Shown here: piece by piece, positions 31,564-55,909 of the stretch | How positions within the stretch are numbered: the stretch's first letter is position 1 | How the letters are laid out: each line of letters opens with the position of its first letter | Assembly: GCF_019649055.1 (NCBI RefSeq) | Contig: NW_026570276.1 | Coordinates: 62,001-126,000, forward strand | Direction: 5' to 3' | DNA from: Paramacrobiotus metropolitanus | Taxonomy: Eukaryota; Tardigrada; Eutardigrada; Parachela; Macrobiotidae | Length of the DNA: 64,000 bases | Position numbers and translations under genes: made by a program | The notes under the pieces: generated by a model | Databases searched by the model: none | Told to the model about the DNA's origin: nothing | Seen by the model: the letters and a program-made list of their open reading frames with translations, nothing else

Positions 31564-31924
31564 TCTAATGGTAGATCCAGAATAGATCCACAGACGGAGA
31601 CAGAAACGGAATCTATCCCGTGGAAGTGAGCAATACGATCTGGATTGCGAACTATTGCGAAATCACAAAACGTCGCACCGTAAACTGCTGACTTTTTAAT
31701 ATTGAAAGTCTGGAGAACAGAAAATCAACAAGTGATCGGCGCAGCTCGATCGTAAAACGTAGAGCCAATTCAACAGCGTGCAACGCTGTGCAGCACGTGC
31801 TATGCCGCGCCCACTATCAGAACGCAAGCCAATCACAAGAGACACAACACAGACACGTAATCCAAAGGCGTAGCGCCACAGGCGTAGCGCCACTGACGTG
31901 AACGCTAGTGATCCCGGTCTCACA
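31564..31924 (-). repeat. 3' LTR of the giant retrotransposon
   Basis: Identical over 361 bp to 55549-55909. In sense orientation it begins TGTGAGACC and ends CTACCATTAGA, so the 3' terminus is not the usual CA. It contains a 14-bp direct repeat (GTGGCGCTACGCCT twice), an inverted CCAAT box (TGATTGGCT), a GCACGTGC E-box and an AT-rich AATATTAAAAAG that could serve as TATA. The sequence just before it in sense direction is not a clean purine tract (CATCCCCCCAGAGGCA). Confidence 0.95.
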
Positions 31925-33366
31925 TGCCTCTGGGGGGATGCCGAGCTCCTGTGAGGCTGGACACACTCCCGGATCCACGAGAAGACGACGGTCGCCGGTG
32001 TCTGTGTGCGCTCAAAAACATCAAATTCTCTTAATCCATTTATCATATCACATCAATTCCATAAGGCACAATTCCATTTAATACGATGTGAATAAAGAGA
32101 TCCAATTATAAAAATACTATCAGAAAACAGATCAACAGTTAAACAGATCAACAAAAGTATTAATCAAAATGTAGACTAGGATCCTCCATTTCTGACTCGT
32201 AAAGGTCACAGGTCCTGTCCACCGTTTTCCGCACTTTGGCCCATTCCGCTCCGTTGAGCAACTTCGCGCATCCGTAATGCGACTTTCATCACAATCCGCT
32301 TTGAGAATCGGGTGCGTATCAAGTACGACTTAGGAATACTGCTTCATCTTTGGAATATGGTGCGTATCAATTGTACGACTTCAAAATGAGATCCATAAAG
32401 GTCATGGAGAGACGTCATGTAGACAAGCGTAGTTCGCTTCCTCCCTGGTAAAGGTCATCCTTTGTTGAGATGATCCGTTGAGATGTGCGACTCATTTTGG
32501 GTTAATGGTCCCAAAGGTCATGCGACTTTGATTCCATTACCGGTGACTTTGTTGGGCAATTGATAATCCCAAAGGTCATCCAGCTTCTCTTCAAAGTTCC
32601 GTTAAAGGTCATGGAGGGACTTAGCCGATTTTCTGCGGCTTTCAAGCACTTCTTTGCTTGCCTCCCTGGTAAAATTTGCAGTTTGACCTTTTCCGTCGCA
32701 CATCCAACTTCAGTATGCCTCGAGCGGCCAGAGTGCCGGCAAGTTTACCGTAGCATCTCTGATGGGGCCGGCCAATTACCGCATTGAGTTTACCCCATGA
32801 AATTTCCACATTTAATCTTTTACTCTTGTTCGCCGCTTGTGGCTAACATTACTACGAGAAACCCGGCTTGGTTACCGTAGTTTTTCTCGTTTTAATTCTG
32901 ACACTGAGTCGCCTGAAAAGAGTGCCGGCGCAGTTTACCGTAACAACTCTAATGAAGCCGGCTGATTGCCGCATTAAGTTAACCTCATCAATATTCCACC
33001 TGTTGTCTTTCTCTTTTTCGCCGCTTGTGGTCCCGTTTCGTATTCAAGAGATCCGGCTTGATTACCGTAGTTTCTCTTGTGCATTTATAACACTGAGTCG
33101 CTTAGAGAGGAGGGCCGGCTAACTGCCGTAGCAACTCCCTTGGGGCCGGCTTTATAGACCGAATCAATTTCAACCCCAATAGATATTCCACATGATTTCT
33201 TTTAGGCAATTCTGTGCTATAAACGCTGCAAACAACAATACACAAATACAGTTAATGTTAACATGTCGAATGTCACGCCCTTTATACAACACCGTTTTTC
33301 ATTTTTGTGACGTACCGACAAATTGCCGTAGACGTCCTTTCAATAGTGTGATCCTAACGATCAGCG
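31925..33366 (-). other. 3' untranslated region with direct repeats and receptor-like half-sites
   Basis: From about 32717 to 33180 a unit of about 190 bp repeats two and a half times, each with GTTTACCGTA or ACTGCCGTA and a GCCGGC stretch. The word CGCCGCTTGTGG occurs near 32837 and 33018 and again in the 5' leader near 55207. Six AAAGGTCA copies in plus orientation lie between 32201 and 32611. No open frame is convincing. Confidence 0.75.
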
Positions 33367-34032
33367 CTATTCCATTTCATTTGAATCGCCCTCGCCATCT
33401 CTTGGCGGGCGTTTCTTAGCGCTTTCCGGTTGGTTTCGATCGGAAGTTCGGTCAACTGGTTCCGTCGAGTCGACTTCCATGACCTTTGTCGGGTCGACTT
33501 CGCGTTGGCCACGACCTTTACCTTGGCGACTTCGCTTAACCGCCTCAAGTCGATGGCGTGCGTCATTTTCTTCTAGTCGCAGTCTTCGGTTATCGGGGTC
33601 GTTAGCTAGGCGACGTTGCACATCAGCGAGATTCTCCCTAAGCTGCTGGTTCCGTATACCGCGTCGTCCCATCTGATTGGGAGCACGTTCCGGACGTCGG
33701 TCGCTTTTCTTAACTAGGAATTCATCGATGTACGTTTCAATTCCGTCCACTGGTTCGACGTAGTCACTTCCCAGGGAATCTTTGATTTTGTTGACCCTTT
33801 CTTCGACTTGGGAGGCATGGCGCTGTATCAAGTTGCCCTTTTCCATTCGTGTCTTACACTTTTTCAGCGCCTTTCGAGCTGTGTGCGCTATGCTGATATG
33901 TTCCATGGGTTGTCCCAATTTAGCGACATGAGCTCGGAAGAACGGTGGAATGTCGTCCTTCATAGTATTAGACACCAATTGATTCTGTGTCTTGTAATGT
34001 GCCAATCTCGCAGCGAAGACCTTTTGCCCCAT
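33367..34032 (-). CDS. Accessory frame 3c: basic, Arg-rich C-terminal part
   Basis: A 221-codon frame in the third register. It overlaps the end of the preceding accessory frame by about 73 nt and lies -1 relative to it. The product is helical and charged, with heptad-like stretches in the middle and a tail rich in Arg, Asp, Pro and Ser. No domain is recognised. It probably continues the protein of 33960-34949, reached by frameshift or separated by an indel; no canonical heptamer is seen at the overlap. Confidence 0.55.
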   Translation of the reverse strand: MGQKVFAARLAHYKTQNQLVSNTMKDDIPPFFRAHVAKLGQPMEHISIAHTARKALKKCKTRMEKGNLIQRHASQVEERVNKIKDSLGSDYVEPVDGIETYIDEFLVKKSDRRPERAPNQMGRRGIRNQQLRENLADVQRRLANDPDNRRLRLEENDARHRLEAVKRSRQGKGRGQREVDPTKVMEVDSTEPVDRTSDRNQPESAKKRPPRDGEGDSNEME

Positions 34033-34949
34033 CCTTTTGCGGCATAGTCCTTCGGATCCACCTGTAATCCGATCGATGCTCTCGCAGCTAACAACTTGAA
34101 AGCTGGATTCACATATCGTAAAACGAACTGGGCCACGTATTCTTGTCGTTCCGGATAGTCGCGATAGTAAAATTGGGTCATCCCAATTGGGTCCGTTGTA
34201 TCCAGTGGCACATCCAGTAGGCTCAAATCGACCAAACTGTGTAACCCATTCCGCCTAATAGGGAGATAACAATCCCGTGCCGAATCGCGGTGGATGAATA
34301 ATCGACGAAAAATTCCTTGTTCCACTCCCTCTTTAATTTCTTTCGCGTAACCCGAATCAAGTAAGAATTGACTCAGCTGTCGCAGAATTGTGCCAATTTT
34401 GTTAGCTTCGACCGAATCCGATTCAATACCAAAGTATCGACAAATTTCGACCGTTTGCTCATCGATATCAGTCGTGTTGTATTCCATATCAATACTTTCA
34501 GGACGTCGGCTGTCAAATCTGGAGTTCTGTCGCTGATCAGCCTGGCGATGATTATCCGGTTCTCGTTGACCTTCCAGTTCACGTCTCTCTCCTGACTCAG
34601 GCTGCGACGGTTCATTACTCACCGGTGTAGCCGGTTGGAGGTCAGTATCCAGAATTATGTTCCGTCGATGAGTTACATTCTCTTGAGGAGCTTCCGCAAT
34701 CGAGCTGGTCCCTTCCATCGCATTGTCTTCTTGTACGACGCTCACAATTGGATCCACGACGTGAACCATTGACTCCACCCGCTGATACTTTGGAGGTGAA
34801 TCTTCCCGTTCGGTGCTTGATGACCTTTTACTTGCGCCCGAGTCACAGGTCGCGTAAAATGCAGCTCTCTGTTGCCATCTTTTATCTTGTGGGTCGGGTG
34901 TCCGATTCCGCGTGTGTTCGCGTCTTTTGTCCCATGACCTTTCAGGTGT
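33960..34949 (-). CDS. Accessory frame 3b: continues the RS-rich frame after an in-frame TAA
   Basis: This is the same register as 34950-35846, separated only by TAA at 34950-34952. Open sequence runs through a Ser/Arg/Pro-rich linker, an acidic stretch, then a folded-looking segment of about 140 residues (ICRYFGIESDSVE... to ...PAFKLLAARAS) with regular hydrophobic spacing. I do not recognise the family. Either TAA is read through, or this is a separate ORF starting at an internal ATG (VESMVH), or the stop is a mutation. Confidence 0.6.
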   Translation of the reverse strand, partial: TPERSWDKRREHTRNRTPDPQDKRWQQRAAFYATCDSGASKRSSSTEREDSPPKYQRVESMVHVVDPIVSVVQEDNAMEGTSSIAEAPQENVTHRRNIILDTDLQPATPVSNEPSQPESGERRELEGQREPDNHRQADQRQNSRFDSRRPESIDMEYNTTDIDEQTVEICRYFGIESDSVEANKIGTILRQLSQFLLDSGYAKEIKEGVEQGIFRRLFIHRDSARDCYLPIRRNGLHSLVDLSLLDVPLDTTDPIGMTQFYYRDYPERQEYVAQFVLRYVNPAFKLLAARASIGLQVDPKDYAAKGWGKRSSLRDWHITRHRINWCLIL

Positions 34950-35846
34950 TTACATTCTGACATTGCGATTCCGGAATGCAACTCCCATCGGCACCTGATG
35001 TCCTTGCTTCTCGGGTTCTGTACGGAATGTCTCCGCACGCCGTTTCTCTTCACGTCCTCTTGTGGTTGCCAAGATCTTTGCCGTGTCGATTTTCCTCTGA
35101 ACACCCGTTTCTGTTACTTCATTTCCATGGCGCACCCATCCTCTTCCGCCACGGTAATCTCGGTCGCGAGAGTGTTCGCGTGACCTTTCACTGTGGTAGT
35201 CACGTGTTCTTTCGCGAGAGTGTTCACGTGACCTTTCGCTCCGTCTTTCAGAAATCCGTTCATGTTCACGTGAATGTCCGCGTGACCTTTCTCTATGCGG
35301 AGGCGATCGAGGTCGAATGAAACCTTCGTCCCGTTTAAAACTTCTGAGTGCTTGCAGCACATCGCTTTCGGTTCGGCGAGATTTACGCAGATCATCCATA
35401 CGTCTTTCGACTTCCTTCTTTATGTATGGTGCCGGCGCGAACCCGTCTTGCAGTCGTTTCTTCTCCCGCAGCAGCATTTTGAATATCTCGTCTGACATAG
35501 CAGCTGGATCTTTCGTTAACGTTTCGATTTGTATGATGAGCGACTGTCGTACAAGTTGCATTTCGTCTTCATTAAGGCTGGCCATGCCCGTGGGTGCAGC
35601 TAAACCCGACGTACTGGGCAATGCTTCCCGTGCGGCCTGTTCACTTGCTCTTTTATTTTCCGCATTAATTTTCGCTCTGATTTCATCCTCCATTTGCTGA
35701 ACACGCATCTTCTCTTGATCTTCTTCAAACTTCTTTCGATACGCGTCTGTTTGTGGACATTTCAACGGTTCCAAGGTGTCATCCCAACCAGGTTCGTTGT
35801 TTCCGGATCGCTTCTCGATAACGATCTTCGAATAGCATTCGCTCTT
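34950..35846 (-). CDS. Accessory frame 3a: RS-repeat protein
   Basis: The frame is open from after TAG at 35847 to TAA at 34950 (about 298 codons); the first part has no early ATG and may be entered from the zinc-ribbon-like frame by a shift. A helical Glu/Arg/Gln region is followed by a dense Arg-Ser/Arg-Glu block (RSREHSRERTRDYHSERS is typical) and a short Gly/Arg segment. Such RS domains mark splicing factors and nuclear-speckle proteins in host genomes. In a retrotransposon this could act on nuclear RNA handling, which is inference. Part of the RS richness comes from embedded AAAGGTCA octamers. Confidence 0.65.
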   Translation of the reverse strand, partial: KSECYSKIVIEKRSGNNEPGWDDTLEPLKCPQTDAYRKKFEEDQEKMRVQQMEDEIRAKINAENKRASEQAAREALPSTSGLAAPTGMASLNEDEMQLVRQSLIIQIETLTKDPAAMSDEIFKMLLREKKRLQDGFAPAPYIKKEVERRMDDLRKSRRTESDVLQALRSFKRDEGFIRPRSPPHRERSRGHSREHERISERRSERSREHSRERTRDYHSERSREHSRDRDYRGGRGWVRHGNEVTETGVQRKIDTAKILATTRGREEKRRAETFRTEPEKQGHQVPMGVAFRNRNVRM

Positions 35847-36063
35847 CTACTGGGATGCTGCCGTAATTTCTTGCGCTTATGAGATTTCGAAAAACGTCCA
35901 AGTTCCCACGTTTGGCTTCCATGATCCCAACAAGCGTGACGGTATGTGGGTCTTCCAGCTTGTGAATACAAGTGTAGCAAGGGAATTTCTTATCGACCTT
36001 TTTGTTATTCCTTAAGCAGTCCGGACACTTTGGATTATAGCCCGTAAACTGATCGATGTCTGC
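35779..36063 (-). CDS. Accessory frame 3, N part: zinc-ribbon-like
   Basis: A 94-codon open stretch in the third register, bounded by TAG upstream and TGA at 35779-35781. It has CPDC and CYTC pairs (C-x2-C ... C-x2-C) with basic residues between, suggesting a small zinc-binding fold, then a helical segment. The only ATG is internal (35930-35932). The next frame lies +1 and overlaps, so the junction at or near UGA is either a +1 shift or an indel. Between 36064 and 36253 I see no coding sequence, only four octamer copies. Confidence 0.5.
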   Translation of the reverse strand, partial: ADIDQFTGYNPKCPDCLRNNKKVDKKFPCYTCIHKLEDPHTVTLVGIMEAKRGNLDVFRNLISARNYGSIPVEERMLFEDRYREAIRKQRTWLG

Positions 36064-36253
36064 CTATTTGTTCCTGTAACGTGGTGACCTTTCTCACGTT
36101 ATCAGCACTTTCTGACTACTGTGACCTTTTCTATTAGTCCTAGTACTGCTTTCAGTTGACCTTTCGTAACACTTTTCTCTTTCGTTTTAAACTGTTTATG
36201 CTTTTCTGTAATATGCAGGGTTCATTACTCGCTGCATATTACACTCGATTAGT

Positions 36254-39200
36254 TCACTCGGATTCTTTCGTCGATGGTTTATACGGCTTGAAATCAATTC
36301 GGCCATCTGGATTAATATGAAGCACTTCGTCCGCGATCAAGGCTTCAACGGCATTCTTAATCCACTCTTTATCGCTTTCAATATTCAAATCTCCCAATTC
36401 GTAATTGACGGCCATGAAGTTCGAAAGGTCATTCCATGACGCCCCATTGGTACCGCCAATGGCGTCCAAAGCCACGTCTGTGATGGCTATCTTCCAGGCC
36501 TCCAGTTCCATTTTCAATCTGGGCGTTCGTTCCTGACCCTGTTTCGGGAGGTAGTAAACGACTTTGTTATCCTTATTGTATTTACATCCCAGCTTTCCTT
36601 CTTTATATGCTCGTTTCAGAGCTCGTTCAGTCATGTTAAGTGACGACCTTCCGTTCGTATTTATTGCCACTTGTCTTTTCAGGTCTGTACCAAGCATTTC
36701 TTTTTCCCGAATAATCTGGAGCGCAGCCTGGACTTCGTTCCATGTACGATTATTCACGTCCAATGCCGGCCCTAACGTGTAATCTGTAGCCTCCTTTGCC
36801 GGTGTGCCGCTACTTTTCTGGGAGGATGCCGAATCCGTTGGGTCGGCTGTCGCTGTTTCGTCGATTCTCAGCTTTGCCAATGATCCTGATGATGACCCCG
36901 CTGATTTTGGTTCGGCTATCTTCTTCTCCTCTTGCGGCAAAGTCTCTTGACCTTTTAGATCGCCGACCGACTTGGATCGTTCCTTCTCAAAGACCTCCTT
37001 TAATGGTATGAACAGTGATTTATGAAACACCTGTCGCGCCGAATCCGCTTCAGCTTCTGCCGCTGCCTTATCCATCGGGAGCATGACCTTTTCTTTCTCC
37101 CGTTTGTCTGAAGCCTCATGACCTTTCGGTTGAACTTCTGCGGTAGTTTCAGATGTCTTCGGACCTTTCGACTGTTCGTCTTTTTCTGTCGTAAGTCCAG
37201 AAGGAGCCGTTATAGTAGCGTCGTCGTCGCTTTCCGATTCCGAATCCATTGGGCCTTTTGTCTTCGATGAAACTGTGACCTTTTCCATATCCTGACTGTC
37301 GGACATATTACAGTGGATCTGTCTTTCCGGTGGTATTAGACCAACTCTCGTGTATCGGATCGGGTGTCCTTTATGTGCGTTTGTCGTGGCAAGGACGTTC
37401 TGTTTAATCAACTTTGGCAGTACGCGTTCGGTTGCCGTGTCGATCTCCTTTATCATCCCGTTCCCATCGTTCCAAACTGCGTTGATGTATTGGCTAATCC
37501 GGTGACTCGTTGACCCTAATGGGCTTGTCATTCCCGCGATTGCCCTTTCTACTCGCATTGGGACCGCTTCATTCGGAGTTGTCAGCGCTTTATCCGAACT
37601 GGCTGGTCTGAACAACTTGGCCCCATACGAAAAACTCGGGTGCTTCTGTATAAGTTTTCCTGCGTTCCGCGCGAATTCCAATACGACGTCGAACTTTTGT
37701 TTAGTGAAGCTACGATGTTGTTTCTTCAAATACGTCTTCAGGCCTGCTTTAAATTTGGATGTCACCGATGCTGTTCTTATTCGTGTGAAATTCTTTTCAG
37801 CTCCGTTGTACGCTTTGATTATTTCATCGACCGTGTTCAAATTATCATCATCTGGACCATCAAATTCTTCATCCGAGGTGAAGTCCAGTTCACTCTCTCC
37901 ATCTGGTTCAGTGTAATTAACCGTCGCTAATGCATCGATTTTCGTGACTGTCTTGCCCTTTCCTTTGGTCTTAACGGGTTCGCTCTTTGCTTTTTTCCCT
38001 TTATCCAGAGCTTCCGCTAAGCTTCTTGGCTCAGTAGTCCTTGACCGTGTTGTTTTCGAATCGGTATGTGACCTTGCACTGACCGTCGAAGTGCTTGGAA
38101 GGCTCACTTCCGATGCCTCCGATTCACGCGACGTCTCCCGTTTCGCTTTTTCACGAATCTGTTTGTCCTTGCGCTCTTTTGGCGTGGATGCGGAAATGAC
38201 AATGGGGACAACTTGTTTCACTGCTATGACTTTTCCTTTGGGTTTTAACGGTTCTGACGTAGCCGAATTGATAACTTTCTTTGAAGTCGTAGGTGTTGAT
38301 GACCTTTCCCCAACTTCGCCAACTGACTCGTCCAATATCTCAACATCATGCGACGCTGGTTCATCTCTTTTCTTCTTCCCGGTGCTTGTGCTATCGCTTT
38401 CGTCACCGCTCTTCTTCTTCTTATCTTCTTCCTCCTGTCGTTTCTTCTTATCTTCTTCCTCCCGTCGTTTCTTGAGAAAATCGCCTTTCTTAACCTTGTC
38501 ACGGTTCATGGCCTCTTCCAATCTGGGCGCTTTTCTCGGTTTGACTTTTGAGGGCTTGACTTTTAAGGGCTTTTTATGCTTGTCGGCCGTTTCTTCGTCT
38601 GAGCCTTCTTCCTCAGGTGGGTCCTCGTCTTCCGACTCTGGTTCGTCGTCACCAGGTGGATTACAATGGGCACAGTTTGGTTCATCACACTGAAGGTGCT
38701 CATGACTTCCTTGGGCAATCTCAAGTACTCTTTGTAGCGAACGTCTGGCCCCTCCTGTTTTAGTTATATTTGCCGACGTGCCCTGCGCCTCTTCCGTCTC
38801 TCCGGCTCCGCCTTCTTGTGCCGGGGGATGAATTTCCAAGTGTCTTGTCTCTTTCGGAGATCCCTGTGAGGCGACCTCCCACAAAGGGTTCTTCTTAGCG
38901 TCGTAAAATACCGGTTTGTACGTTCCATCTTCCATTCGTCTTGTGAGTCGGAAATGTGCTCCATCGATCTCCGCTCGATGCCGCATCATGCTGATGAGTG
39001 TGCTTGCTTGAACCACGGCATCTTTTCGGTCGCTTTCAGGTATCAGATCCCATAACTGGTCAATAGCTGCCTGATTCGCATTTCGGGCGCTCTCTTCTGA
39101 TACATCCCATGGGGCATATGGAATCGGGTCTCCTGTTATTGGGTCAACTATCACCGCAGTTATGGTTTCCACAGCTTCTCCATTGTCAGCGAAGAGTCTG

Positions 39201-41176: not shown

Positions 41177-41303
41177 TAACTGTGCTTACCTTCTATAAAA
41201 ACGAAACAATAAAGGTTAACTTTTTGCACAGTGGTTACCTTTCTTTTTGCCTTCCCAACTCCTATTTTTAATTAAGTGTGACCCCTTATTTATGTCTATG
41301 TGG

Positions 41304-45900: not shown

Positions 45901-48900
45901 TCGAATTTTTGAGCAGAGGTTTGTCCCCTTCTTTTGCCTTTCGTCCATTTCGTGCAGCGACTCTTGGGTGACCCCTTGCTACTCGAATTCTCGTTGGTGA
46001 CCTTTCTGATTGGTCGGAGTTTGACCTTTCTTCGTCCGATTTTGACTTTTCCAATTCATTTATTTCTTCCAAACTCGACAGTGGCTTTTCGGTCAACTCG
46101 ACCGGCGGACATTCCTCACCGTTATCGGGTGACCTTTCCCCGTTTTTTGCCTCAGTTACTGGGTTTTGCTGTTCATTCGATATTCGTTCAACTTCTTCTT
46201 TAAACTTCTTCCACATTTCGCCTCTGTCCGTTAACATCTGTGCAATGTCGAAAGCCGACTTTGAACTTTCTTCTGTTTCATTCGATTGTCCTTCGGCTAT
46301 CTCTTGAACTGGTTCCTCTTTCTCTGCTTCTTTGACAGTCCCTTTATTGGCTTCGTCCTGTTGAACTGTTTTGTAACCTTTAGGTCGTTTAGGACCAACG
46401 AAAATGCAGCTCGCCATCAGTTCTTCGGTGACCCATTCATCATTCGGAATCGTTTCATACATGCACCATGTATCACCGCCTCGTTCGGGGTAATCCACTC
46501 CATCTGGATCTGGTGCAAAGGTCACCTTTTTCTTTTGCATTAATCCCGGTAATCTTCTTTTCCGGGTTACCTGTAATTCTCGCATCTCTTTTACATCAAA
46601 TCTGGGGATTTCCTCTTCAAATTTATTCCAATATTTTTCGAATGTTTTTTCGTTTCCCTCTTTTAACGCGTTATAGTACACTTCAAGTGATTCGTAGACA
46701 GGTGTACCAAGTCCTGCCGGGAAGATGATCGTTCTCCCTTCACCTTTATACATGTGGTTCACACGGAAGTCCCAGAAAAGGTCAACTCTCGCTTCTTCCC
46801 ACATTTCTCCTTCTTCGGTCATCTCTTCTATCTCTCGTTCAAATCTCCTTTCTGTTGCTACCGGATCGAGAGGATCTTGGATTCCTTTCTCGACACGTTG
46901 CAACCAATGGTTTAACCATCTGCCTCTTCCAATTATAAAACTTTCCACACATGACAACCACGTTCGATATCTATTCCAATGATACCGTTCGATGTGTGGT
47001 TTCCACATTTCGTTTGTCCGCATGATGCTTTTCGCTTTCTTTTGGGCATGACCTTTAAGGTCTGCTAATGCGGCATTACATCTTGGCCATTCTGAAGGGT
47101 CATCTTGAGAGGCATTTTCACGACATTCGGCACATTCCCATTGTGGTTGTATTCTGCACGGGTCCTCGAAATAGCCGTGGTGACAACTCCTGGCTCGTTC
47201 GTCTGAGGTTAGTGACCTTTGACTCGTTTGCGGATTAACATCTTCCCGTGTTGTGGCGTCTTGTTCACATTCGATTGGGGTCACGCTTTTATCCTCCGAG
47301 GATATTTCAATGACCTCTAGTTCTTTTTCTGTTCGGTGACCTTTCAATTGTTCGAGTGCCTTGTCACGGATTTCGCTTGTAAACATCTGTTCCTCTTCAG
47401 TTATTCGCTTCAAAACCCGTAACCTTTCACTCTTTTTATCCTTCCCCACTTTAGCCGTCTTTATTTCCAGTGCCTCTGGTACTGGGATAGCTTTTTCAAC
47501 ACCCTTTTCTGTGTCTCCTTGCTTACAGTCATCTGCGATCATACTTCTCCCGTCCGGGAGAAATATGATCGCCTCATCCGTGTCTGGCGCGAGTGGTTCA
47601 TTTATCCTTTCGTTGACTTTTTTGACATTTACGCTTTCGCTAATCTTCTCCGGTGCCTCTGGTACCGGGATTATCCGTTGGCTAATCTCGTTCGGCTGCA
47701 CTCTCGTCATTCCCGGTGCCTCTGGTACTGGGATGACCTTTTCTCTTCCCTTTTGTGTCAGCATTGTCCTAATTAATGTGTTTTCGATCTCCTGCTGAAT
47801 CATTTGCAACTGCTCAAATGGTGACAAATCTTTTCGCGTCATCTTTTTCTTTTCGTTTCCCGGTGCCTCTGGTACTGGGATTAGCGTTTTATTAACCGTT
47901 TGAGCATTTCCCGTCTGTTTTACAAGTTCGGTGACCTTTCCGACTTGAACTTTGGCGGCTGGTTTGGGGTCATCTTCTTTCTCTTCTTCGCCTTCATTAT
48001 CCATCAGTACGAACTTCTTCTCTAAGAAGTCGAATCCCAGAAGCACTTGTACGTCGTCGCACTTCGGTCGGACGTAGAAGGAATGTTCGCTTGTCTTCTT
48101 TCGTAAGGTCACTGGTGCTACGCAGTAATGCGTCACCAGGAATCCTGACGTTCCGCTAATTCCGTTTATTTTCACCAGTCTATCTGGTGGCAATGGGAGC
48201 ATATGAAGTCCATTCTTCTCGCAAAACGGTTTGCTGATCAGCGACGTCTCAGCGCCGGTGTCCAGCATTGCGTTGACCTTTATGTCTCCCACTTTCACTT
48301 CGTGTGTATATGCTTCAATTCTCTTTGGTAACTTTCCATTTTGAATCTTCAAGGTGTGAATCTTACATTTCACAGGGATAAGCGATACTGGTCCCGGATC
48401 CATATCGGGAAGCACTTGTCCTTTTGCTGGGGTGCTATGACCTTTCAGTATCTCGCTCAGCTTATCAATCCTATGTGGAACGTTAGTCCGAACATCGTAA
48501 TATTTTCGCGGTTTTTCTTTATTTGTTCGCTTCTCTGTAGCCATTTTACCATCGGTGACCTTTTCCACATTCTGCACTTGCTCATTTGCTTTTGTGCCAG
48601 GTGTGTGACCTTTTGTCACTTCGTTTATCGTCTGATGAATCAGTTCCTCTTTACGGTTTTCATTTCGCTTATCTCGCAGCTTCTCAATGACTTCACTTGT
48701 TATTTGGTCAGCTTGCTTCAGTTCCTCTGCTTCACTATCTTTCATCTCATCTGGTGATCTTTCATATGTGACCATATCATATCCCTTTTCGGTCATCCAT
48801 TCGATCACCTTTGCGGACACTTCATTGTTCGTTTTCGTCTGATCAATTTGTGAAGACATTCCATCTGTTCGGGCTGGTGACTTATCGTTGGCATCCTTTT

Positions 48901-49588
48901 GCAGTGCTTGAGATAAGTCCCGTGACCTTTCAACTGCGCTACTCTGTTGCGTTTGCGCCATCTCGTTTGACCGTCGTTTTTGTTCGTTTTGCGCTAAGTC
49001 CTGTGACCTTTCGTTGCGCTTCATGACAAATCCGCCGTTTGTCAGCTTTTGTATGGGGACTTTTTCTCCGTAATTCGGCGGTTTATCCTGTGGTGGAGCA
49101 TTACGTGAATAATTCCAATCAGCGAGTGTCTTCTTATATTCCTCTGGATTGAATACTGGGACTGGGTTCGATGACCCTTGCGCTGGTTTCCCGGTAACCA
49201 ACTCTTCCAGTCGCTTTCTTTCACATTGCGTTCGCAAATGTTGCATGTCCCAGTAGTCCTCTTGTGACATTTTCACTTTCTGCTTCGCTTTCGGCGTTAC
49301 GGGTATCCACATCCCGTGATTCCCATTTGGTCTGTAGGCCACTTTTTGCCACCTTTTCTTCTGTTGTAACGTTACTGCATCGTCAAGTGAGTCATCGGAG
49401 TTCTGTTGTGCCAATTCGCTATTCTTTTGCTGCGCTGTTCGCAGTGTCAAGTCTGTTTCTTGACCTTTTAACACGACGCTGTCGCCGTGACCTTTGGCGT
49501 TCGCACTCACTCCTTGACCTTTCACTTGGATTTTTCCCACAGAGGGTGACCTTTCGTCTTTACTACAAACGGTGATATTCTGCTTAAT
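42905..49588 (-). CDS. pol: Pol: aspartic protease, reverse transcriptase, RNase H, integrase zinc-binding domain
   Basis: Open for 2228 codons after TAG at 49589-49591. Protease DTGA lies near codon 440, with a second strand pair ending LLGFDFL. Four near-copies of IPVPEAP follow. A long acidic linker of about 900 residues separates protease and RT. RT has FCVNYIMLN, the LPNPDELLDA-type region, and YIDDV near codon 1660. RNase H begins at VIECDASKEGIG and has TDHQAL. The HHCC zinc domain of integrase ends in CQGC near codon 2205. All catalytic motifs appear intact. No ATG lies near the start, so translation from upstream gag (read-through or shift) is expected. Length is roughly twice a usual gypsy pol because of the linker. 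Confidence 0.93.
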   Translation of the reverse strand: MKQNITVCSKDERSPSVGKIQVKGQGVSANAKGHGDSVVLKGQETDLTLRTAQQKNSELAQQNSDDSLDDAVTLQQKKRWQKVAYRPNGNHGMWIPVTPKAKQKVKMSQEDYWDMQHLRTQCERKRLEELVTGKPAQGSSNPVPVFNPEEYKKTLADWNYSRNAPPQDKPPNYGEKVPIQKLTNGGFVMKRNERSQDLAQNEQKRRSNEMAQTQQSSAVERSRDLSQALQKDANDKSPARTDGMSSQIDQTKTNNEVSAKVIEWMTEKGYDMVTYERSPDEMKDSEAEELKQADQITSEVIEKLRDKRNENRKEELIHQTINEVTKGHTPGTKANEQVQNVEKVTDGKMATEKRTNKEKPRKYYDVRTNVPHRIDKLSEILKGHSTPAKGQVLPDMDPGPVSLIPVKCKIHTLKIQNGKLPKRIEAYTHEVKVGDIKVNAMLDTGAETSLISKPFCEKNGLHMLPLPPDRLVKINGISGTSGFLVTHYCVAPVTLRKKTSEHSFYVRPKCDDVQVLLGFDFLEKKFVLMDNEGEEEKEDDPKPAAKVQVGKVTELVKQTGNAQTVNKTLIPVPEAPGNEKKKMTRKDLSPFEQLQMIQQEIENTLIRTMLTQKGREKVIPVPEAPGMTRVQPNEISQRIIPVPEAPEKISESVNVKKVNERINEPLAPDTDEAIIFLPDGRSMIADDCKQGDTEKGVEKAIPVPEALEIKTAKVGKDKKSERLRVLKRITEEEQMFTSEIRDKALEQLKGHRTEKELEVIEISSEDKSVTPIECEQDATTREDVNPQTSQRSLTSDERARSCHHGYFEDPCRIQPQWECAECRENASQDDPSEWPRCNAALADLKGHAQKKAKSIMRTNEMWKPHIERYHWNRYRTWLSCVESFIIGRGRWLNHWLQRVEKGIQDPLDPVATERRFEREIEEMTEEGEMWEEARVDLFWDFRVNHMYKGEGRTIIFPAGLGTPVYESLEVYYNALKEGNEKTFEKYWNKFEEEIPRFDVKEMRELQVTRKRRLPGLMQKKKVTFAPDPDGVDYPERGGDTWCMYETIPNDEWVTEELMASCIFVGPKRPKGYKTVQQDEANKGTVKEAEKEEPVQEIAEGQSNETEESSKSAFDIAQMLTDRGEMWKKFKEEVERISNEQQNPVTEAKNGERSPDNGEECPPVELTEKPLSSLEEINELEKSKSDEERSNSDQSERSPTRIRVARGHPRVAARNGRKAKEGDKPLLKNSKTKKLSDSRENESDLSSEDEGVDERPLEKADKGQATAQEYESSNSDSEWTSSSDNSTTSEDSGVSDLSEQEDLMDLDEDDEVDEEKEKDIKVRRLKVEKARMSKDVIKVYSDQRIKLKPSNCTRVKVKMGKYAPAQNKLMFTPVPQAETEVQPLAGVTDHRGKYFEIVIANHSSKYRIVKKNQLLGYVEPYEHMENVKVNAGTVKNVLEDPEVDDTTKAELTKIIQNLKLGPDLTQEQKNDVYNAFWEFWKVLPTSKKPYGDVKGVTHVIDTGDAKPIKCNPARTSWTGREFITKHIEEMLAQDVIEPSDAEWSFPVVLAVKKNGDGTMGTRFCVNYIMLNKLTRKNNYPLPNPDELLDACAGNKYYGKMDLQSGFWQIPMDPASINKTTFVTQDGMYRFKRMPFGVCNGPATFQLCMDKVLSKAKRKGCVFGYIDDVIFAGKTYEIFMQNLQNVLMSLVEAGFTIKPTKCEFGMRQMGFLGHILSEDGIRMDPEKVTAVSEFKRPQTERQLRSFLGLANYYRKFIMGYAQKTCHLYELLKQDKHVKKDWTKVHEDEFNSLKQLLCEGPVLAKFDPAKPTVIECDASKEGIGAVLSQDGHPIAYASRVLHGAEKNYGVTEWECLAVVIAVRKFKPYIDYAEFTVRTDHQALTNLLRSETNKVGMNPRLTRWAMALQGHQFKIEYKPGKYCDNADALSRAPIEGPTCQEEEFDEIPNFEDYKKEFDTKEPAIEIGQLFLQMVEQREKRLKVTSATANESAENEAKVNRVKGWLPAVSDLKVTGLDAEFTVQNEKVTGLNVGPEKDDLWETDKVAQALNECPIKLLRFPKQMKKRYKPLPRCKVIKDWNELSTATVRIVNLQGDEEEEDDSNLQLRNKQLKDPHLAMIIDELEHLPDAETRSKFEVHYQLWNGILYRIKDKNGRLERSYVVPLSMRRAIIHALHDEKAAGHLGFEKTLSAIRLRYYWDRMSTDVKNYILACQGCQFVKHRGNAHPENYKR

Positions 49589-49789
49589 CTATTCTTGCCT
49601 TGCCAGCTTCTCTTCTTCGTCTTCTGAACAGTTCCAAAACTTTGGCTTTATCTCTCCGTAACAGTCGCAACTTGGTTCATTCGCTTTATCATTTTCTGCC
49701 AAGTATTTTGCGGAATTTTGCGTGTTGCTCATTTTCCTCTTGCGCAGTATCGTTCTGCGGTGGTGATTTTTGGTCTTTCGATTTGCCAT
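49589..49789 (-). CDS. Short frame between Gag and Pol, in register with Pol, ending in TAG
   Basis: This frame shares Pol's register and is separated from it only by a single TAG. Its C-terminal 40 residues are acidic with a Cys pair (SCDCYGE). The preceding Gag-extension frame overlaps it and lies -1 to it, ending in TGA at 49689-49691. The natural-looking sequence switches from one frame to the other within the overlap. A +1 shift at the UGA or an indel would join them; the TAG would then require read-through. Confidence 0.5.
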   Translation of the reverse strand: MANRKTKNHHRRTILRKRKMSNTQNSAKYLAENDKANEPSCDCYGEIKPKFWNCSEDEEEKLARQE

Positions 49790-50350
49790 TTATCTGTTTC
49801 CGGAACCATTCGTGGTGCATTTCCACTTCTTCTGCGGTATCAGTTTGTGGTTTCTTTTGGTTTAACAGCGCTTGTTGAATCTTGGCATTACGTAATGCAC
49901 GACGTTCAGCTAACACTTTCTCGCTGCAATACGGTGACCTTTCATTTTGCTGCACTTTTTGCAGTGTCGCGCTACCGTCACGACAATTCCCACTCGCAGT
50001 ACCATTCTGCGGTGACCTTTGGTCCCGTTGCGCGTTTCCACTCGCAGTACCATTCTGCGGTGACCTTTCACTTTGTGACGGTATCCCTATAACCGTTCCA
50101 TTTCCTTTTTGCGATGACGGCATCCATATAGCCGTTTCTCTTTGCTGTGGCGGCATCCATCTAGCCGTTTCTTGTGGTTGCGGCATCCATATAGCCGGTC
50201 CATTTTGCTTTTTCGCTGACGGCATCCATATAGCCGTTGCAGTGGTCACGTTCACTGCAGTACCATTCTGCAGTGGTGACCTTTCCCTTTTATCCGGTGG
50301 TTTAGGGTCGGGTCGATCAGTAGGCTCACCGGTGCCTACTGATCTTGCCC
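49689..50350 (-). CDS. gag: Gag C-terminal extension reached by -1 frameshift
   Basis: The -1 register is open from the frameshift site at 50351-50357 to TGA at 49689, adding about 220 residues. It contains five copies of an (I/R)WMP or related (IGIP) motif separated by Gln/Lys/Ser-rich linkers, and two near-identical NGTASGN blocks. It ends in a charged helical segment. The DNA repeat unit at 49989 and 50040 (CCATTCTGCGGTGACCTTT) carries the element-wide octamer. The same register is also open upstream to 50645 as an ATG-starting shadow of the Gly-rich Gag tail, which I do not count as a gene. Confidence 0.65.
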
Positions 50351-50357
50351 GTTTCCC
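50315..50357 (-). promoter_or_regulatory. -1 programmed ribosomal frameshift signal
   Basis: In the Gag frame the heptamer G_GGA_AAC (50351-50357) is correctly phased. Six nucleotides later begins a perfect 11-bp stem, GATCAGTAGGC with GCCTACTGATC (plus arms 50334-50344 and 50315-50325), with an 8-base loop. The zero-frame TAG stop lies within the stem. G_GGA_AAC with a 5-7 nt spacer and a strong stem is the established viral -1 layout. The -1 frame stays open for 220 codons. Confidence 0.85.
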
Positions 50358-51559
50358 TGAACCGGCGCTCCACCTTGTTGCGCGCCCTGCACATTTCCTT
50401 GCGCTTGCTCGTTCACCGGGCCACCTCCGTTTGGCTGGCCACCACCCTGTTGGTAGTTTCCTTGGCCGCCGCCATTGTTCTGGCCCCCTCTGAAGTTTCC
50501 GCGGCCGAAGCCTCTGTTTCTTCCTCTGAAGCCGCCGCGGCCAAAGCCACCACGGCCGTAGCCGCCATTCTGGCCACCGCCATTTCCATTTCCGTAGTTT
50601 CCGTTGCCTTGCTGGTTCTGAAAGTTTGCTTTTGCCTGATACCATTGCGTGATCAGGTCATATCCATTTGCGACCGCTTGGCGCCAACCACCAAGCCCGC
50701 GCAATCGTTGCCACTCGTTAAAGGCAAACAGGTTCGGGTTCTGTTCTGGTGGTGTGTTGGCGAATTTGCACCCCTGTGTTTGATGATTGCCGTACATACA
50801 GTACTGGCACATCTGCACGTTGTTCGCAACCCATCCGTCAATTATCTGAAACTTGAATTCGGTTCGTGACCCTTGATTTTGCTGTTGATTCCCTCTGAAG
50901 TTTCCTTGACCTTGGCCTTGTCCCTGATTCTGGAAGTTCCCTTGACCTCCATTCCAGTTTCCATTTTCGTATCCATTTCCGCCGAAGTTTCCGTTACCCC
51001 CTCCTTGTTGTGGTAACCCGACATTCATAGGGACCATATTCTGTGGTGCAGGTGGGGCCACATTCTGGGGAGCCACATTCTGGGCTACCGGTCTCACTTG
51101 AGCTGCTGCCTGTATCGCCGCCACCATCGCATATGTTATCGGTTGTCCCGTCTGACTGTCGATAAAGGTCACCTTTTCCGTGACCTCTCTGACCGGAGTC
51201 TCCACACGGTATTCGACTGGTTGCTGGGGTGGTGCAGCTGCCATTCTCTGTGGCGGCACATTTTCGACTTGCCCTTGGCGGATGGTCACGTATTCCTGAT
51301 TACGTTGACCTTTAGGCGCCTTATATTTCTCTTCGCCGGTGGCCCAATGTCGGAAGAAGTCCTTCACGTCCGTTGGCGTCTTGCACTTTTGTATCCGCAA
51401 TGCCTTGTAGAGTTCATTGTCTCCTCTACATCCTTCAATTAAGAATCCGACTGCTTGTTTCTCCGTGATGATTCTTTTTGCTTTGAATCGCATCATCGCC
51501 TGATAATACTGGTCCAGCGATTCTTTTTCCGAGTTCAAATTTCCTTGCATAGGCCTCAC
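50336..51559 (-). CDS. gag: Gag, capsid end and nucleocapsid
   Basis: The frame begins within the capsid-like region (ESLDQYYQAMM matches the retrotransposon Gag helix pattern). It continues through a Pro/Ala/Gln linker and contains one zinc knuckle C-x2-C-x4-H-x4-C (CQYCMYGNHQTQGC, near codons 251-264). A Gly/Asn/Gln-rich tail with RGG/RGF boxes for RNA binding follows. There is no ATG at its head; a TAG in this register lies just upstream of codon 1. It must be joined to the preceding frame, which lies -1 to it, within about 51545-51565. No known +1 signal is evident there, so this junction may be an indel. Confidence 0.88.
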   Translation of the reverse strand: MRPMQGNLNSEKESLDQYYQAMMRFKAKRIITEKQAVGFLIEGCRGDNELYKALRIQKCKTPTDVKDFFRHWATGEEKYKAPKGQRNQEYVTIRQGQVENVPPQRMAAAPPQQPVEYRVETPVREVTEKVTFIDSQTGQPITYAMVAAIQAAAQVRPVAQNVAPQNVAPPAPQNMVPMNVGLPQQGGGNGNFGGNGYENGNWNGGQGNFQNQGQGQGQGNFRGNQQQNQGSRTEFKFQIIDGWVANNVQMCQYCMYGNHQTQGCKFANTPPEQNPNLFAFNEWQRLRGLGGWRQAVANGYDLITQWYQAKANFQNQQGNGNYGNGNGGGQNGGYGRGGFGRGGFRGRNRGFGRGNFRGGQNNGGGQGNYQQGGGQPNGGGPVNEQAQGNVQGAQQGGAPVQGNGQDQ

Positions 51560-52750
51560 GTAAGCCTAAGACTTCTTCATCTCGATCACCATATTCGTCT
51601 TTGAATTTGTCCATCCACTCTGTTATTGAGTATTCAATTCCATCTTCGGCTGCGATGTCCTTTTCCCCTTCAAACCATGTTTTTGCAGGACCTTTCACCG
51701 CACTTGCTATCTCAATCATGATCTGATCGTCCGTTAGCTGATAAGTCCTTTGGGTTTCTTTCACCAATCGTGTCCACCCACTCACTGTGTCACGACTGCC
51801 GTCAAAGGTCATGAGTGGTGTTTTCCTGGCCATCGAGTTGAGTGCTTTTGTCAATTGCACCGCTGTATTTTCTGCTCTCTGGTCATCGTCTTCTTCGCTA
51901 CTTCCATCATCACTTTGATTTCGTTTCGCCTTTCCATACCGGGATTTCCTAGGACGCTCCTGCCGGCTGGGTGGTCTGTCCCGTCGCCCTTCATCGATGA
52001 ACACGTTTGTTTCAAAATGCGAGGGAAATTGTGAGGGGTCACCTCGACTCATATGCGGGTTACTTTCCGAAGGTGGCTCTTTGTCTTCTTTGCCCTTTTC
52101 TCCTTCTCTTTCATTTTTAACACTTCCCTTACCGGTGCCGGTTCGTAGCGGCATCTCAAAGTGGAAGCTTTTGCCCGTGCCCGTTTCATGCGCCTTGCTA
52201 TAACTGGGCGGGGGCGATTCCACCGTTGCTGTCCTGACTCCGTGTTGTAGGAGCTGTTCATCTTTGTGTTTGTTGGACATTTGAAGAGCTTTATTCTCAT
52301 CTTCAAGGCGCTTAATCCTTAAATCGGATTGTTCTTTCTCATTCTTCAGGTTCTGATTCTCTTGGTTGACCTTCGACATCTGCTGATGCAGTTGAAGCGT
52401 TTTGTCTTGAATGACCTTTTCAGTATCATTTTCCACTTTTCTGATGTGTTCCGCCAACTGAGTCACATCCCTTTCCAACGTCATGTATTCTTCGGCTGCT
52501 GCTTTTAGCTGATTTTTCGTCACGGTGACCTCATCTTCTCTTGTCATCGCCGTTTGTGTCATATCAATCAGCTCCGTATTCAGTCTGATAATCTCCTGTG
52601 TCTTCTGATGGACCGTTTGTTGCCACTCTTTATCCTTCAACTCGAGCACTGTGACCTTTTCGTCCAAGAGGTGTGCCTCATGTTCCCACCTCGCGCCTTG
52701 TTCTGCAATGGCCTTGGCGGCTTCTTTTAACTCTTTTAACTCATCGGTGA
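51435..52750 (-). CDS. gag: Gag, coiled-coil and capsid N-terminal part
   Basis: The frame is open from the A_AAA_AAG site. It first continues the heptad pattern of the upstream coiled-coil frame (KELKEAAKAIAEQ), then a Pro/Arg/Ser linker, then a retrotransposon Gag-like helical domain (MTFDGSRDTVSGWTRL... WFEGEK... WMDKFKDEYG). No ATG opens it. The last 40 codons before its stop run in a register different from the Gag continuation, so they are probably not used. Gag would thus be split across this frame and 50336-51559. Confidence 0.8.
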
Positions 52751-54109
52751 CTTTTTTGTTGTCGTCCTCAAAGCCTTATTCTCTTGCATCACCTGTCTTA
52801 TTTCATTGTTCAGTCGTACACCTTCGGTGGCTGTAAGATCTCGCAGGTCCTTTGCCACCTTAGCGGCTTCATCAGCCCTTCTCTGGTGATCGTATGACTC
52901 TTTCTGGAGGGTCCCGATACTCTCGTCACGCAGCTTCAGGTCATTCCTGAGCTTGAAGACTTCAGTGGTGTTCGTCAACAACCTCTGAGTAGCATCGGCG
53001 AGTTTGGTTGCGTATTCATCTCGTTTTGTTTCCGCTTCGGTGACCTTTAGTTTCAGCGAGTCACATTCGTCCTTCAATTCGGCTAAGTGCCGTGACCTTT
53101 CCGCTGTTTCTTCTGACATACTCTCGTTAAGTTCACTGACCGCAAGATGACCTTCCATTTCTCTGTCATCTACCATTTTCAAGCACTCCTCAGCGAGTTC
53201 TTTCTGACGCTCGTATTTAATCTTCCATTCATCCGCTGCGCTTTCCAAATCGGCCTGTTGTTGCTCCAGTTCATAGATACGAGCATCCAGAGATCCTATC
53301 CGATTTTGATATTCCTGTTTCCTCTTCGTCACCAGGCCTTCCTTAGCTTCGAGTTCCTCTTCCAGCTCCTTCACGCGTCTCTTCAGAGTTGACGTGGGAC
53401 TGTTAGGTGAGGGCGGTCTAACATTGATGACCTTTCCTGTTTGTGTCCGTTCAATAAGGTGCTCGGGTATGTCCTTAAATGGTGTCACCCCTTCAGCACG
53501 GTCAGCTTCTTTCATCGCAGTCTGGAAGGACATATTCATCGTCGCTTCATCATCCGTGAAATATGATTCGTTCGATTCATCCGAGACCATTGGAGTTGCC
53601 CAAAGGTCATCACCGACGGTCTTATCGTTCAGTGAAAGGTCATCCAATCCCAGTTCCGCCAAGTTCTCTTCGGTGACCTTTGTCTTTTCCATTTCCGATT
53701 GAGTCAGGTTCACATTTTTATCCTGCTCGTCCGTTGCGCTTGTGGTAGCATCCGACTGTGATGCTCCCACCGGTTCCGCTCCCCTTTCTGTGGGTTTTTC
53801 CTCCCCGGTGACCTTTTTCTGGTTCATCGGATTGCCTCCCGCCGTAGACGCGGGAGTGTGCTTCTGGTCGTCGCTGGAGCTTTCCTGATTAGCGACTGAC
53901 TCGAGCGCCTTCTGATAAGTACTATCAGAGCCTCGTGAATCCTTCTTCTCGAATGCCTTGGGCGCTCGAATGTTCCGCTCATGTCCAACTGGACGTGAGT
54001 ACGGGTACAAATCTTTTTTGTACGGGTTTGGTGCGCTTTGCTGTGAACTGCGGGAGCTTTTGCTTCCCTGACTGCTGTTGGATGTCGGTTCCTCTTGGTC
54101 ATTGTCCAT
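52736..54109 (-). CDS. 5'-most ORF: disordered head and long coiled coil
   Basis: Starts at ATG 54109, the first good AUG after the 1.4-kb leader, and runs 457 codons. The first 100 residues are Ser/Gln/Lys-rich with no fold; about 100-230 is acidic; 240-450 is a nearly continuous coiled coil (long runs of Glu/Lys/Leu with heptad spacing). The coiled coil continues directly in the next frame past an in-phase A_AAA_AAG. It probably forms the N-terminal part of Gag or an oligomerisation partner, comparable in position to the extra ORF1 of Ogre elements. Confidence 0.85.
   Translation of the reverse strand: MDNDQEEPTSNSSQGSKSSRSSQQSAPNPYKKDLYPYSRPVGHERNIRAPKAFEKKDSRGSDSTYQKALESVANQESSSDDQKHTPASTAGGNPMNQKKVTGEEKPTERGAEPVGASQSDATTSATDEQDKNVNLTQSEMEKTKVTEENLAELGLDDLSLNDKTVGDDLWATPMVSDESNESYFTDDEATMNMSFQTAMKEADRAEGVTPFKDIPEHLIERTQTGKVINVRPPSPNSPTSTLKRRVKELEEELEAKEGLVTKRKQEYQNRIGSLDARIYELEQQQADLESAADEWKIKYERQKELAEECLKMVDDREMEGHLAVSELNESMSEETAERSRHLAELKDECDSLKLKVTEAETKRDEYATKLADATQRLLTNTTEVFKLRNDLKLRDESIGTLQKESYDHQRRADEAAKVAKDLRDLTATEGVRLNNEIRQVMQENKALRTTTKKSPMS
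52751..52757 (-). promoter_or_regulatory. Candidate -1 slippery heptamer A_AAA_AAG
   Basis: Correctly phased in the coiled-coil frame, six codons before its TAA. The -1 frame continues the same coiled coil. I see no strong stem within 10 nt downstream. A homopolymer indel would look the same, so this is weaker than the signal at 50351. Confidence 0.55.
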
Positions 54110-54184
54110 GTTGATCGGATAACTTGGACGCTCCTGTCAATTGTTCTCACACACACGTTATTGTATGGTTTATTCAATTTTCCT

Positions 54185-54658
54185 AAAGGTCACTCTGTAC
54201 CTCCGAAATTTTTCTAAGTCCTTATTAAAGGTCACTTTTTGACTGAAAAATTTCGACTAAGTCCCGTTTAAAGGTCACTTTTTCGTTAAAAAGTTCGAGA
54301 GATTTGCCCTAAAGGTCACTCTTTAGACAAAACTTTCGAAGCCGTTTTACAGTTGGAGCACGTTTACGAATGAAATCCTACAGCTGCTGATGTCGCTGTA
54401 CCACTATTCACTTCAATTTCAACTTCGTTAAAGGTCACTATTGATCACTTTCAGATCATAAAGGTCACTTAACTATGTCAATTTGGTCAATTCCAACTTT
54501 TTGGTAAAGGTCACTTTTCGACTCAATTTCTGTTCAAAGGTCACTTTCCAGCTCAATTCGAGTTAAAGGTCAATTTCCAGCTCAATTCTATTAAAGGTCA
54601 CTTTCTAGCTCGATTTTGATCAAAGGTCACCTTTCCTTTGTCTCAACTCAAAAGGTCA
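54185..54658. promoter_or_regulatory. Leader array of twelve AAAGGTCA half-sites
   Basis: Octamers start at 54185, 54227, 54270, 54311, 54430, 54460, 54506, 54536, 54565, 54593, 54622 and 54651. All are in plus orientation, antisense to the element. The later ones are spaced 28-30 bp within a degenerate unit AAAGGTCACTTTCCAGCTCA. AAAGGTCA equals the extended half-site bound by monomeric nuclear receptors. The array sits between the primer site and the first ORF. Confidence 0.85.
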
Positions 54659-55229
54659 CTTTCTGTCTCGATTATCTCGTCTCAGATCAAATTTCCCATT
54701 ACAGTTCAAGTTCAACGGAAAATCCCCATTCGGGTTGTTTACTTCGTTCTGATTCGTCCGCTAGCTCGAAATATTCAGTTCAACTTTCGACCAATCACAG
54801 CTCGGGTAACTGACCAATCACGTTAAACCATTTAAATTTTATATTAGCCTGACGTCACGGTCAACGGCCAGACATGCGCGTCGTGTGCAAAACTCCGCCT
54901 ACTTCTACGCTCAGCTCAGTACGGACCAATAGAAATTGCTAAATTTACCAACTAGCCAATCCCGTAATTGATAACGGTTTTTCTACCTGTTCACCGTCTG
55001 TCCGTTCCACGTCCGTCCGTTCCACGGGGAGAGTGATCCAGATGATCCAATTCTTCTTCCAACTCCGTTCCCGCGTCGCCGCTGTTCCGTAGCGTGCCTC
55101 GCGCTATTAGTAGGCTACTGTGCCGGCTGTGCCGTAGCAACAGTAATGCTCTACTCCAGTTTGGAGGAGTCTGATCTGGCAAATCCGTGCGCCCCTTTTA
55201 GCGCTTCGCCGCTTGTGGCCCACGGCTTA

Positions 55230-55369
55230 GGATTCGCTGAATCCTTGCCGAGTATCGGTGACACCAGTGTAGGTCTTCGCTGAAGACTCTACACCGAGGA
55301 ACACCGACGACTGAACTCTTGAACTCTTGCACAGCTGGGGCAACAGCACGGTTCTTCGCTGAAGATACC
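55230..55369. repeat. Three leader hairpins sharing the apex TTCGCTGAA
   Basis: Hairpins lie at 55230-55244 (GGATTC-GCT-GAATCC), 55267-55294 (GTGTAG...TCTTC-GCT-GAAGA...CTACAC) and 55350-55369 (GGT.TCTTC-GCT-GAAGA.TACC). They lie 180-320 bp from the primer site in the 5' leader, where LTR elements often keep packaging or dimerisation structures. The function is inferred from position. Confidence 0.65.
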
Positions 55370-55537
55370 GTACCGAAAACCGAAGCTGGAAATCCGCGTC
55401 AGATGAGGCAGTTCACCGCTTGTGGTGTGCGCTTTGCTGTAGGATTGACCTGTGCTTTACTGGTCACGGGCGACGTATCAAATAACAGGCCAACTTTGCC
55501 TGACACAAATCAAATCAGATCAGAGAACCGCTGTCGG

Positions 55538-55548
55538 CTCTGCTACCA
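55538..55548 (-). other. Primer-binding site for initiator tRNA-Met
   Basis: Directly after the 5' LTR, the sense strand reads TGGTAGCAGAG, complementary to the 3' end CTCTGCTACCA of animal initiator tRNA-Met. The match stops after 11 nt. There is no gap if the LTR ends TTAGA. Confidence 0.85.
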
Positions 55549-55909
55549 TCTAATGGTAGATCCAGAATAGATCCACAGACGGAGACAGAAACGGAATCTA
55601 TCCCGTGGAAGTGAGCAATACGATCTGGATTGCGAACTATTGCGAAATCACAAAACGTCGCACCGTAAACTGCTGACTTTTTAATATTGAAAGTCTGGAG
55701 AACAGAAAATCAACAAGTGATCGGCGCAGCTCGATCGTAAAACGTAGAGCCAATTCAACAGCGTGCAACGCTGTGCAGCACGTGCTATGCCGCGCCCACT
55801 ATCAGAACGCAAGCCAATCACAAGAGACACAACACAGACACGTAATCCAAAGGCGTAGCGCCACAGGCGTAGCGCCACTGACGTGAACGCTAGTGATCCC
55901 GGTCTCACA
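55549..55909 (-). repeat. 5' LTR of the giant retrotransposon
   Basis: Identical to 31564-31924. As the transcription-initiating copy it carries the inverted CCAAT box, the E-box, the doubled GTGGCGCTACGCCT and the AT-rich AATATTAAAAAG. It contains no AAAGGTCA octamer, so the half-sites lie only inside the transcribed body. A 91-codon frame across it is a by-product. Confidence 0.95.

Follow-up and report, generated by a model that had tools for sequence, protein, structure and literature searches.

The window analysed here, a stretch of 64,000 nucleotides of contig NW_026570276.1 (positions 62,001 to 126,000) from the tardigrade Paramacrobiotus metropolitanus, contains a complete Ty3/gypsy long terminal repeat (LTR) retrotransposon at 31564-55909 (24.3 kb, sense on the minus strand) that is crowded with one short word, AAAGGTCA. 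The sequence comparisons argue that selection acts on this word as nucleic acid, and the presence of about 100 words in one element suggests recognition by a DNA-binding protein along its full length. In the reading that we prefer, to which a probability of roughly 40% is given, the word is a cis-acting address: a DNA-binding protein would coat the element and keep the copy open to transcription, in a VANC-like manner but in coding DNA. Each copy of this family offers about 100 conserved sites, and a related clade of the same genome that lacks the word provides a natural control. The family touches on two open questions, namely how animal mobile elements escape silencing and how a protein distinguishes repeat families.

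The core AAGGTCA, or its complement TGACCTT, was found 105 times inside the element (34 on the plus and 71 on the minus strand) and seven times in the remaining 39,674 bases of the window, whereas the whole word AAAGGTCA was found 91 times inside and six times outside. The original prediction had put the cores at about 100 inside, where about three would be expected, and at about four elsewhere; the first figure was borne out, while the number outside was too low. Markov nulls of orders 1, 2, 3 and 4 gave means of 3.5, 6.2, 19.6 and 64.4, the last two already including fragments of the word, and 105 was reached in 0 of 100 replicates at any order. When synonymous codons were shuffled within the ten stop-to-stop open reading frames (ORFs), overlaps being counted twice, 11.1 ± 3.1 words were obtained (maximum 22 in 1000 shuffles) compared to the 83 seen, so the enrichment also survived a codon-aware null. 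As had been predicted, words lie in the leader, the large ORFs and the 3' untranslated region (UTR), and neither LTR has any, which is weak evidence at 361 bp each. Most are in ORFs, where every one of the three registers is used. The base preceding the core was A in 91 of 105 cases and the base following it was C in 57, T in 27, A in 19 and G in 2; T was not preferred at position -2, and single-base variants of the word were scarce (1 to 10 each). In seven window ORFs, the word was synonymously possible at 135 places and present at 76.

Conservation was assessed by aligning pieces of other copies singly to the window, clade II being the window's own family and clades I and III related copies. 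Nineteen pieces from seven other copies of the family carried 3.0-6.3 words per kb, so that neither of the two refuting outcomes named in the original prediction, loss of the enrichment under a codon-aware null and absence of the word from other family copies, was observed; a sister clade was, however, without the word. In the seven clade II copies, 81-92% of the aligned words were kept versus 49-55% of other 7-mers. Counts across copies are not independent, and the key tests are the clade I comparisons and the fourfold-degenerate sites. Three clade I copies were aligned over blocks of 68-81% DNA identity that do not cover the leader, and in these copies words were kept in 21/28, 16/21 and 11/15 cases, compared to 12.5%, 12.2% and 10.8% of other 7-mers; these figures leave out a neighbouring element in locus L034 (copy C97). 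Identity at fourfold-degenerate positions, scored only where the codon was otherwise conserved, was 22/24, 20/22 and 16/18 within words versus 0.40-0.47 outside, and raised conservation was confined to offsets -1 to +7. Since fourfold sites within words are conserved, nine bp of nucleic acid and not the protein are constrained, which upholds at these sites the earlier claim of selection on nucleic acid. On the alignments, the conserved footprint reads as 9 bp, AAAGGTCA with C, T or A as the ninth base.

Tripeptides of K, V and a residue with an A-starting codon numbered 5 in ORF D and pol of a word-free clade III copy (locus L036) versus 20 in the window, whose D plus homologous pol is slightly longer. 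Thus, the word drives the peptides, as the original prediction had held in attributing the repeated peptides to the word and not to protein need. Selection for the DNA site overrides codon choice and apparently protein sequence too, over many kilobases. An artefact of composition, of repeats in the proteins or of tandem duplication could draw on the tandem repeats of the leader and ORF parts and on proteins rich in word-encoding peptides, but we consider it refuted by the codon null, the fourfold conservation, the use of all registers and both strands and the tripeptide counts of the word-free copy. Genome-wide, same-orientation word pairs at gaps of 15-45 were found 4056 times versus 32 for the control.

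Word clusters were also seen away from the listed reverse transcriptase (RT) matches, at 202.6-219.7 kb, 565-568 kb and 2197.8-2210.1 kb of contig C1, and some clusters lie in short dispersed repeats of different make-up (e.g. C2:312563 and C5:2092752). Other element families may carry the word.

The element was assigned to Ty3/gypsy because paired LTRs, a target duplication, a primer site and the pol order (protease, RT, RNase H, integrase, from Pfam matches) are all present. Its parts are as follows, in order along the sense strand.

55549..55909, minus strand: 5' LTR, 361 bp, identical direct repeat, no word.
55509..55548, minus strand: primer-binding-site region, immediately past the 5' LTR, starting with TGGTAGCAGAG.
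54186..54658, plus strand: leader array, 12 words that all read TGACCTT on the sense strand and in many cases are separated by 28-46 bp.
52736..54136, minus strand: ORF J, 466 codons stop to stop, without Pfam family, 8 words.
51435..52775, minus strand: ORF I, Gag-like by inspection, 4 words.
50336..51565, minus strand: ORF H, 3 words; by inspection, glycine-rich and bearing a single CCHC-like knuckle.
49689..50657, minus strand: ORF G, without Pfam family, 4 words.
42905..49588, minus strand: ORF F (pol), aspartyl protease, RT, RNase H and integrase zinc-binding domain, with every register represented among its 36 words.
41304..43043, minus strand: ORF E, integrase core, 6 words.
36254..41185, minus strand: ORF D, orphan of 1643 codons stop to stop, 15 words.
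33367..36253, minus strand: remains of gene X, split here into ORFs C, B and A, which in other copies is a single uninterrupted frame of about 915 codons.
32202..32611, plus strand: 3' UTR array, six words upstream of the 3' LTR, each TGACCTT on the sense strand.
31564..31924, minus strand: 3' LTR, 361 bp, identical direct repeat, no word.

The LTR begins with TG and ends in TTAGA rather than CA, the 4-bp target duplication CTGC is present on both flanks, and the primer site TGGTAGCAGAG presumably fits initiator tRNA-Met. The identical LTRs point to a recent insertion; despite this, the 3'-most gene, X, is broken in the window copy, whereas 23 of its 55 matches run through residues 1-913 without a stop. 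At least 115 RT matches at 85-100% amino acid identity were found genome-wide, the window's own included (scored from 1650 candidates), and the two best protein matches to pol (95% and 94%) were both from P. metropolitanus. Rfam and tRNA scans of the window gave no match. Tandem repeats were noted in the leader and portions of the ORFs, and an A-over-T bias runs on the sense strand along the element body (window 32001-55000; window-strand AT skew about -0.15 to -0.39).

Sense and antisense words of the ORFs were kept alike in clade I (30/39 and 14/19, respectively). Sense words are in excess in the ORFs because the proteins permit more sense places, 60 of 99 such places being used in the seven window ORFs and 16 of 36 antisense ones. 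This equal persistence favours double-stranded DNA as the object of selection and disfavours the RNA packaging mark that had been proposed. For an action in RNA, Gag or some other protein would bind the word for packaging, or AAAGGUCA would pair with UGACCUUU within the RNA; the CCHC-like knuckle of ORF H is consistent with the former, and the UTR arrays, one-sided and opposite to most ORF words, make the latter conceivable. However, word orientation in the ORFs tracks what the codons permit, and pairing leaves the exclusion of G after the word (2/105) unexplained, so that an action in RNA appears quite improbable.

Regarding spacing, word starts in the window were never less than 24 bp apart, although 10.9 such cases were expected from an exponential, and hence no direct-repeat or inverted-repeat dimer spacing is present. 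Spacings below 24 bp were also depleted in clade I (4/154 vs. 23.5 expected, neighbouring element excluded) and in clade II pieces (13/721 vs. 82.5 expected, with related copies tallied separately and non-overlap not removed). Where two words were synonymously possible at 7-23 bp from each other, both were used in 0 of 11 cases, compared to 3.45 expected (P = 0.014). Such a depletion of close sites resembles what steric exclusion would give if the bound unit were larger than the word. Among 131 spacings, no helical phasing was seen at periods of 10, 10.5 or 11 (p about 0.43, 0.44 and 0.99).

The word has been lost in clade III, which was covered by 9 kb of one copy, RT pieces from twelve more and place counts. 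When the sister family P0017/P0019 from this genome was included, a tree of RT proteins gave (I,(II,III)) with a support of 96/94 for II+III, a topology under which the word is most simply ancestral. The clade III copy on C44 (locus L036, C44:718500-727499) is 92% identical in RT amino acids and has pol and D open over the 9 kb covered, in which AAGGTCA is found 0 times. None of its 18 aligned words was kept, fourfold sites in former words were identical in 4 of 12 cases, core columns were conserved no more than flanks (0.748 vs. 0.769), and 0 of 33 synonymously possible places were used. In the RT region, 13 clade III rows had 0-2 words (L049: 5), compared to 3-6 in 13 clade II rows and 2-4 in 7 clade I rows. 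Along the first 2.92 Mb of contig C1, word pairs within 14 kb of RT numbered 20 in a clade II copy, 6 and 7 in two clade I copies and 0 in two clade III copies; L049 had 0, and an unplaced partial copy at 108,891 had 1.

At several RT word sites, clade III has AGATCA in place of AGGTCA (RT pieces L038-L050). Among 16 aligned clade III word sites, two gapped ones of the 18 having been dropped, this transition occurred 7 times against a background of 13.9% (P = 0.0036); in two cases the site had changed completely to GAGATCA (P = 0.02). In the two ORFs of L036, GAGATCA, a word chosen out of thousands of 7-mers, was found 10 times versus 2.1 under the codon null, a count reached in 0 of 500 shuffles. 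Genome-wide, its pairs numbered 105 versus 20 for the control, and 33 of the 100 pair places listed have a clade III RT no more than 15 kb away, at offsets that they share, meaning that these pairs were inherited and are not independent. GAGATCA is thus only suggestive as a candidate second address word in clade III.

The loss in clade III bears on two further explanations. The words could serve the linear complementary DNA (cDNA) before integration, with a protein that compacts it or carries it into the nucleus. Coverage of the whole body and strand symmetry would suit such a role, for which proximity to a promoter is not needed, but clade III manages without the word, and we hold this role to be unlikely. 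The other explanation comes from the word itself, which had been claimed as the extended half-site of monomeric nuclear receptors. The fit to the ERR/NR5A consensus is the poorer one, given A at -1 in 91/105 and no preference for T at -2. In the accessible text of PMC4777543, AAAGGTCA is identical to the NBRE, the NR4A monomer response element. A host receptor of the NR4A/HR38 type, binding as a monomer and activating transcription of what would be a receptor-driven unit, with the body sites as an intragenic enhancer or elongation aid, is thus a serious rival. The hormone-responsive unit that had been suggested is conceivable as well. The host genome has nuclear-receptor DNA-binding domains (63 exon-level matches) and the dense leader array is near the expected transcription start. 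On the other side, about 80 sites are in ORFs, up to 20 kb away from the leader, clade III of the same host lacks the word, and none of the receptor domains of the genome was linked to the word. On balance, we consider this receptor doubtful as the reader.

Returning to the address reading, the word would be a 9-bp double-stranded DNA binding site repeated along the transcribed length of a giant Ty3/gypsy element. On each copy, selection would work in cis, words entering the genes via synonymous codons and via amino acid changes where the protein permits. From the conservation of single sites, their strand symmetry in ORFs, their spread over the body and their mutual avoidance at short distances we infer a reader, an action on chromatin and a payoff: a sequence-specific DNA-binding protein, host- or element-encoded, would read the sites and coat the element DNA, and the putative nuclear reader would bind AAAGGTCAC specifically. 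The likeliest payoff would be anti-silencing of the kind known from plant VANC proteins and their target motifs, the integrated copy being kept accessible and transcribed. Every copy conserves individual sites out of some 100, and each site would therefore have to aid its own copy. By the same argument, the receptor sponge that had also been proposed, in which copies jointly titrate a host factor, is very improbable: thousands of clustered sites exist genome-wide, as a sponge would have, but a benefit common to all copies would not conserve single fourfold sites in each of them. A wider form of the address reading, namely that coding sequence serves as a double-stranded DNA address with more than half of the synonymously possible positions filled, a dedicated protein coating the element and related lineages changing the address, is tentative and would not be our first expectation.

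Several observations weigh against the address reading. No reader protein for the word was identified. The constraint on the word is lineage-specific and dispensable, since clade III lives without it in the same genome. Strand symmetry does not predict the one-sidedness of the leader and 3' UTR words (18/19), nor that neighbours less than 60 bp apart share orientation in 85/95 cases versus 102/163 at wider spacing; tandem duplication from one founder per array may account for this one-sidedness. Close pairs are not absent genome-wide, with 701 same-orientation pairs at gaps of 0-15 versus 36 for the control, and per gap length they are scarcer yet present (about 44 at gaps of 0-15 vs. about 131 at 15-45). 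Finally, two of the three clade I copies, C9 and C1:2162000, are closely related and hence not independent.

Two proteins of the element were tried as readers and rejected. Gene X is an orphan with 10 matches, all in P. metropolitanus, and none in Pfam or PDB; its AlphaFold model (mean predicted local distance difference test score, pLDDT, of 45) was too poor for fold comparison, and among its 55 matches (50 of 828 candidates scored) there was none at 2-20 kb downstream of a clade III RT. In this gene (window 33367-36253; L019:1808-4555), a zinc-finger-like motif of the form CPDC...CYAC was observed at the N-terminus, and one stretch is rich in RS. As for ORF D, the clade I copy C9 is word-dense yet without a D match. 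Residues 1572-1622, at the C-terminus of D, resembled a linker histone at a score below threshold (E 0.011, 16.4 bits, cut-off 22.4).

Outside the element, satellite-like arrays with TTGTCAA repeats occupy window 173-4709, their basic unit being 174 bp long and the higher-order one 498 bp. Arrays of 9-bp units like TTAGGTTTC, with 16-bp arrays beside them, were seen at window 8150-8383, 9246-9400 and 56946-57082. A telomere pattern search gave no match.

A literature search found nothing joining P. metropolitanus with a retrotransposon, which does not prove the finding unpublished, and a search on LTR elements laden with a motif, or on receptor sites within retrotransposons, found nothing comparable, which does not prove novelty; the accessible text of the tardigrade-repeat paper PMC11071193 does not mention the genus Paramacrobiotus. 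With Ty3/gypsy elements in general, the present one shares the LTRs, the primer site and the protease-RT-RNase H-integrase order, and it differs in its 24.3 kb, its several orphan ORFs and the saturating word. The insulator of Drosophila gypsy, where about 12 Su(Hw) sites lie in the 5' UTR, is likewise an array of sites, there for a host factor, in the leader of an LTR element, but its sites are confined to the leader whereas the words here run throughout the ORFs. With the NBRE, as far as the accessible text of its source describes it, the word shares the same 8-bp sequence and the use of single sites rather than spaced dimers; the NBRE is known there as scattered regulatory sites, whereas about 100 are found here per mobile element, within genes. 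The closest parallel is with VANC21, which, in the accessible parts of PMC5735166 and PMC10398659, reads the YAGTATTAY motif in VANDAL21 of Arabidopsis. Neither VANC domain, DUF1985 or DUF287, was among the Pfam matches obtained with the ten window ORFs and full-length gene X, and the words are mainly coding, so that the element is not a member of VANC/VANDAL, other kinds of reader being possible. According to those same parts, VANDAL is a DNA transposon with motifs mainly in non-coding tandem repeats, whereas the present case is an animal LTR retrotransposon with mostly coding words. Common to both are a short dense motif that belongs to one mobile-element family and differs between relatives, here a high-density word specific to one family and lost in relatives, and in VANDAL21 a motif whose density is important and which is read by a DNA-binding protein.

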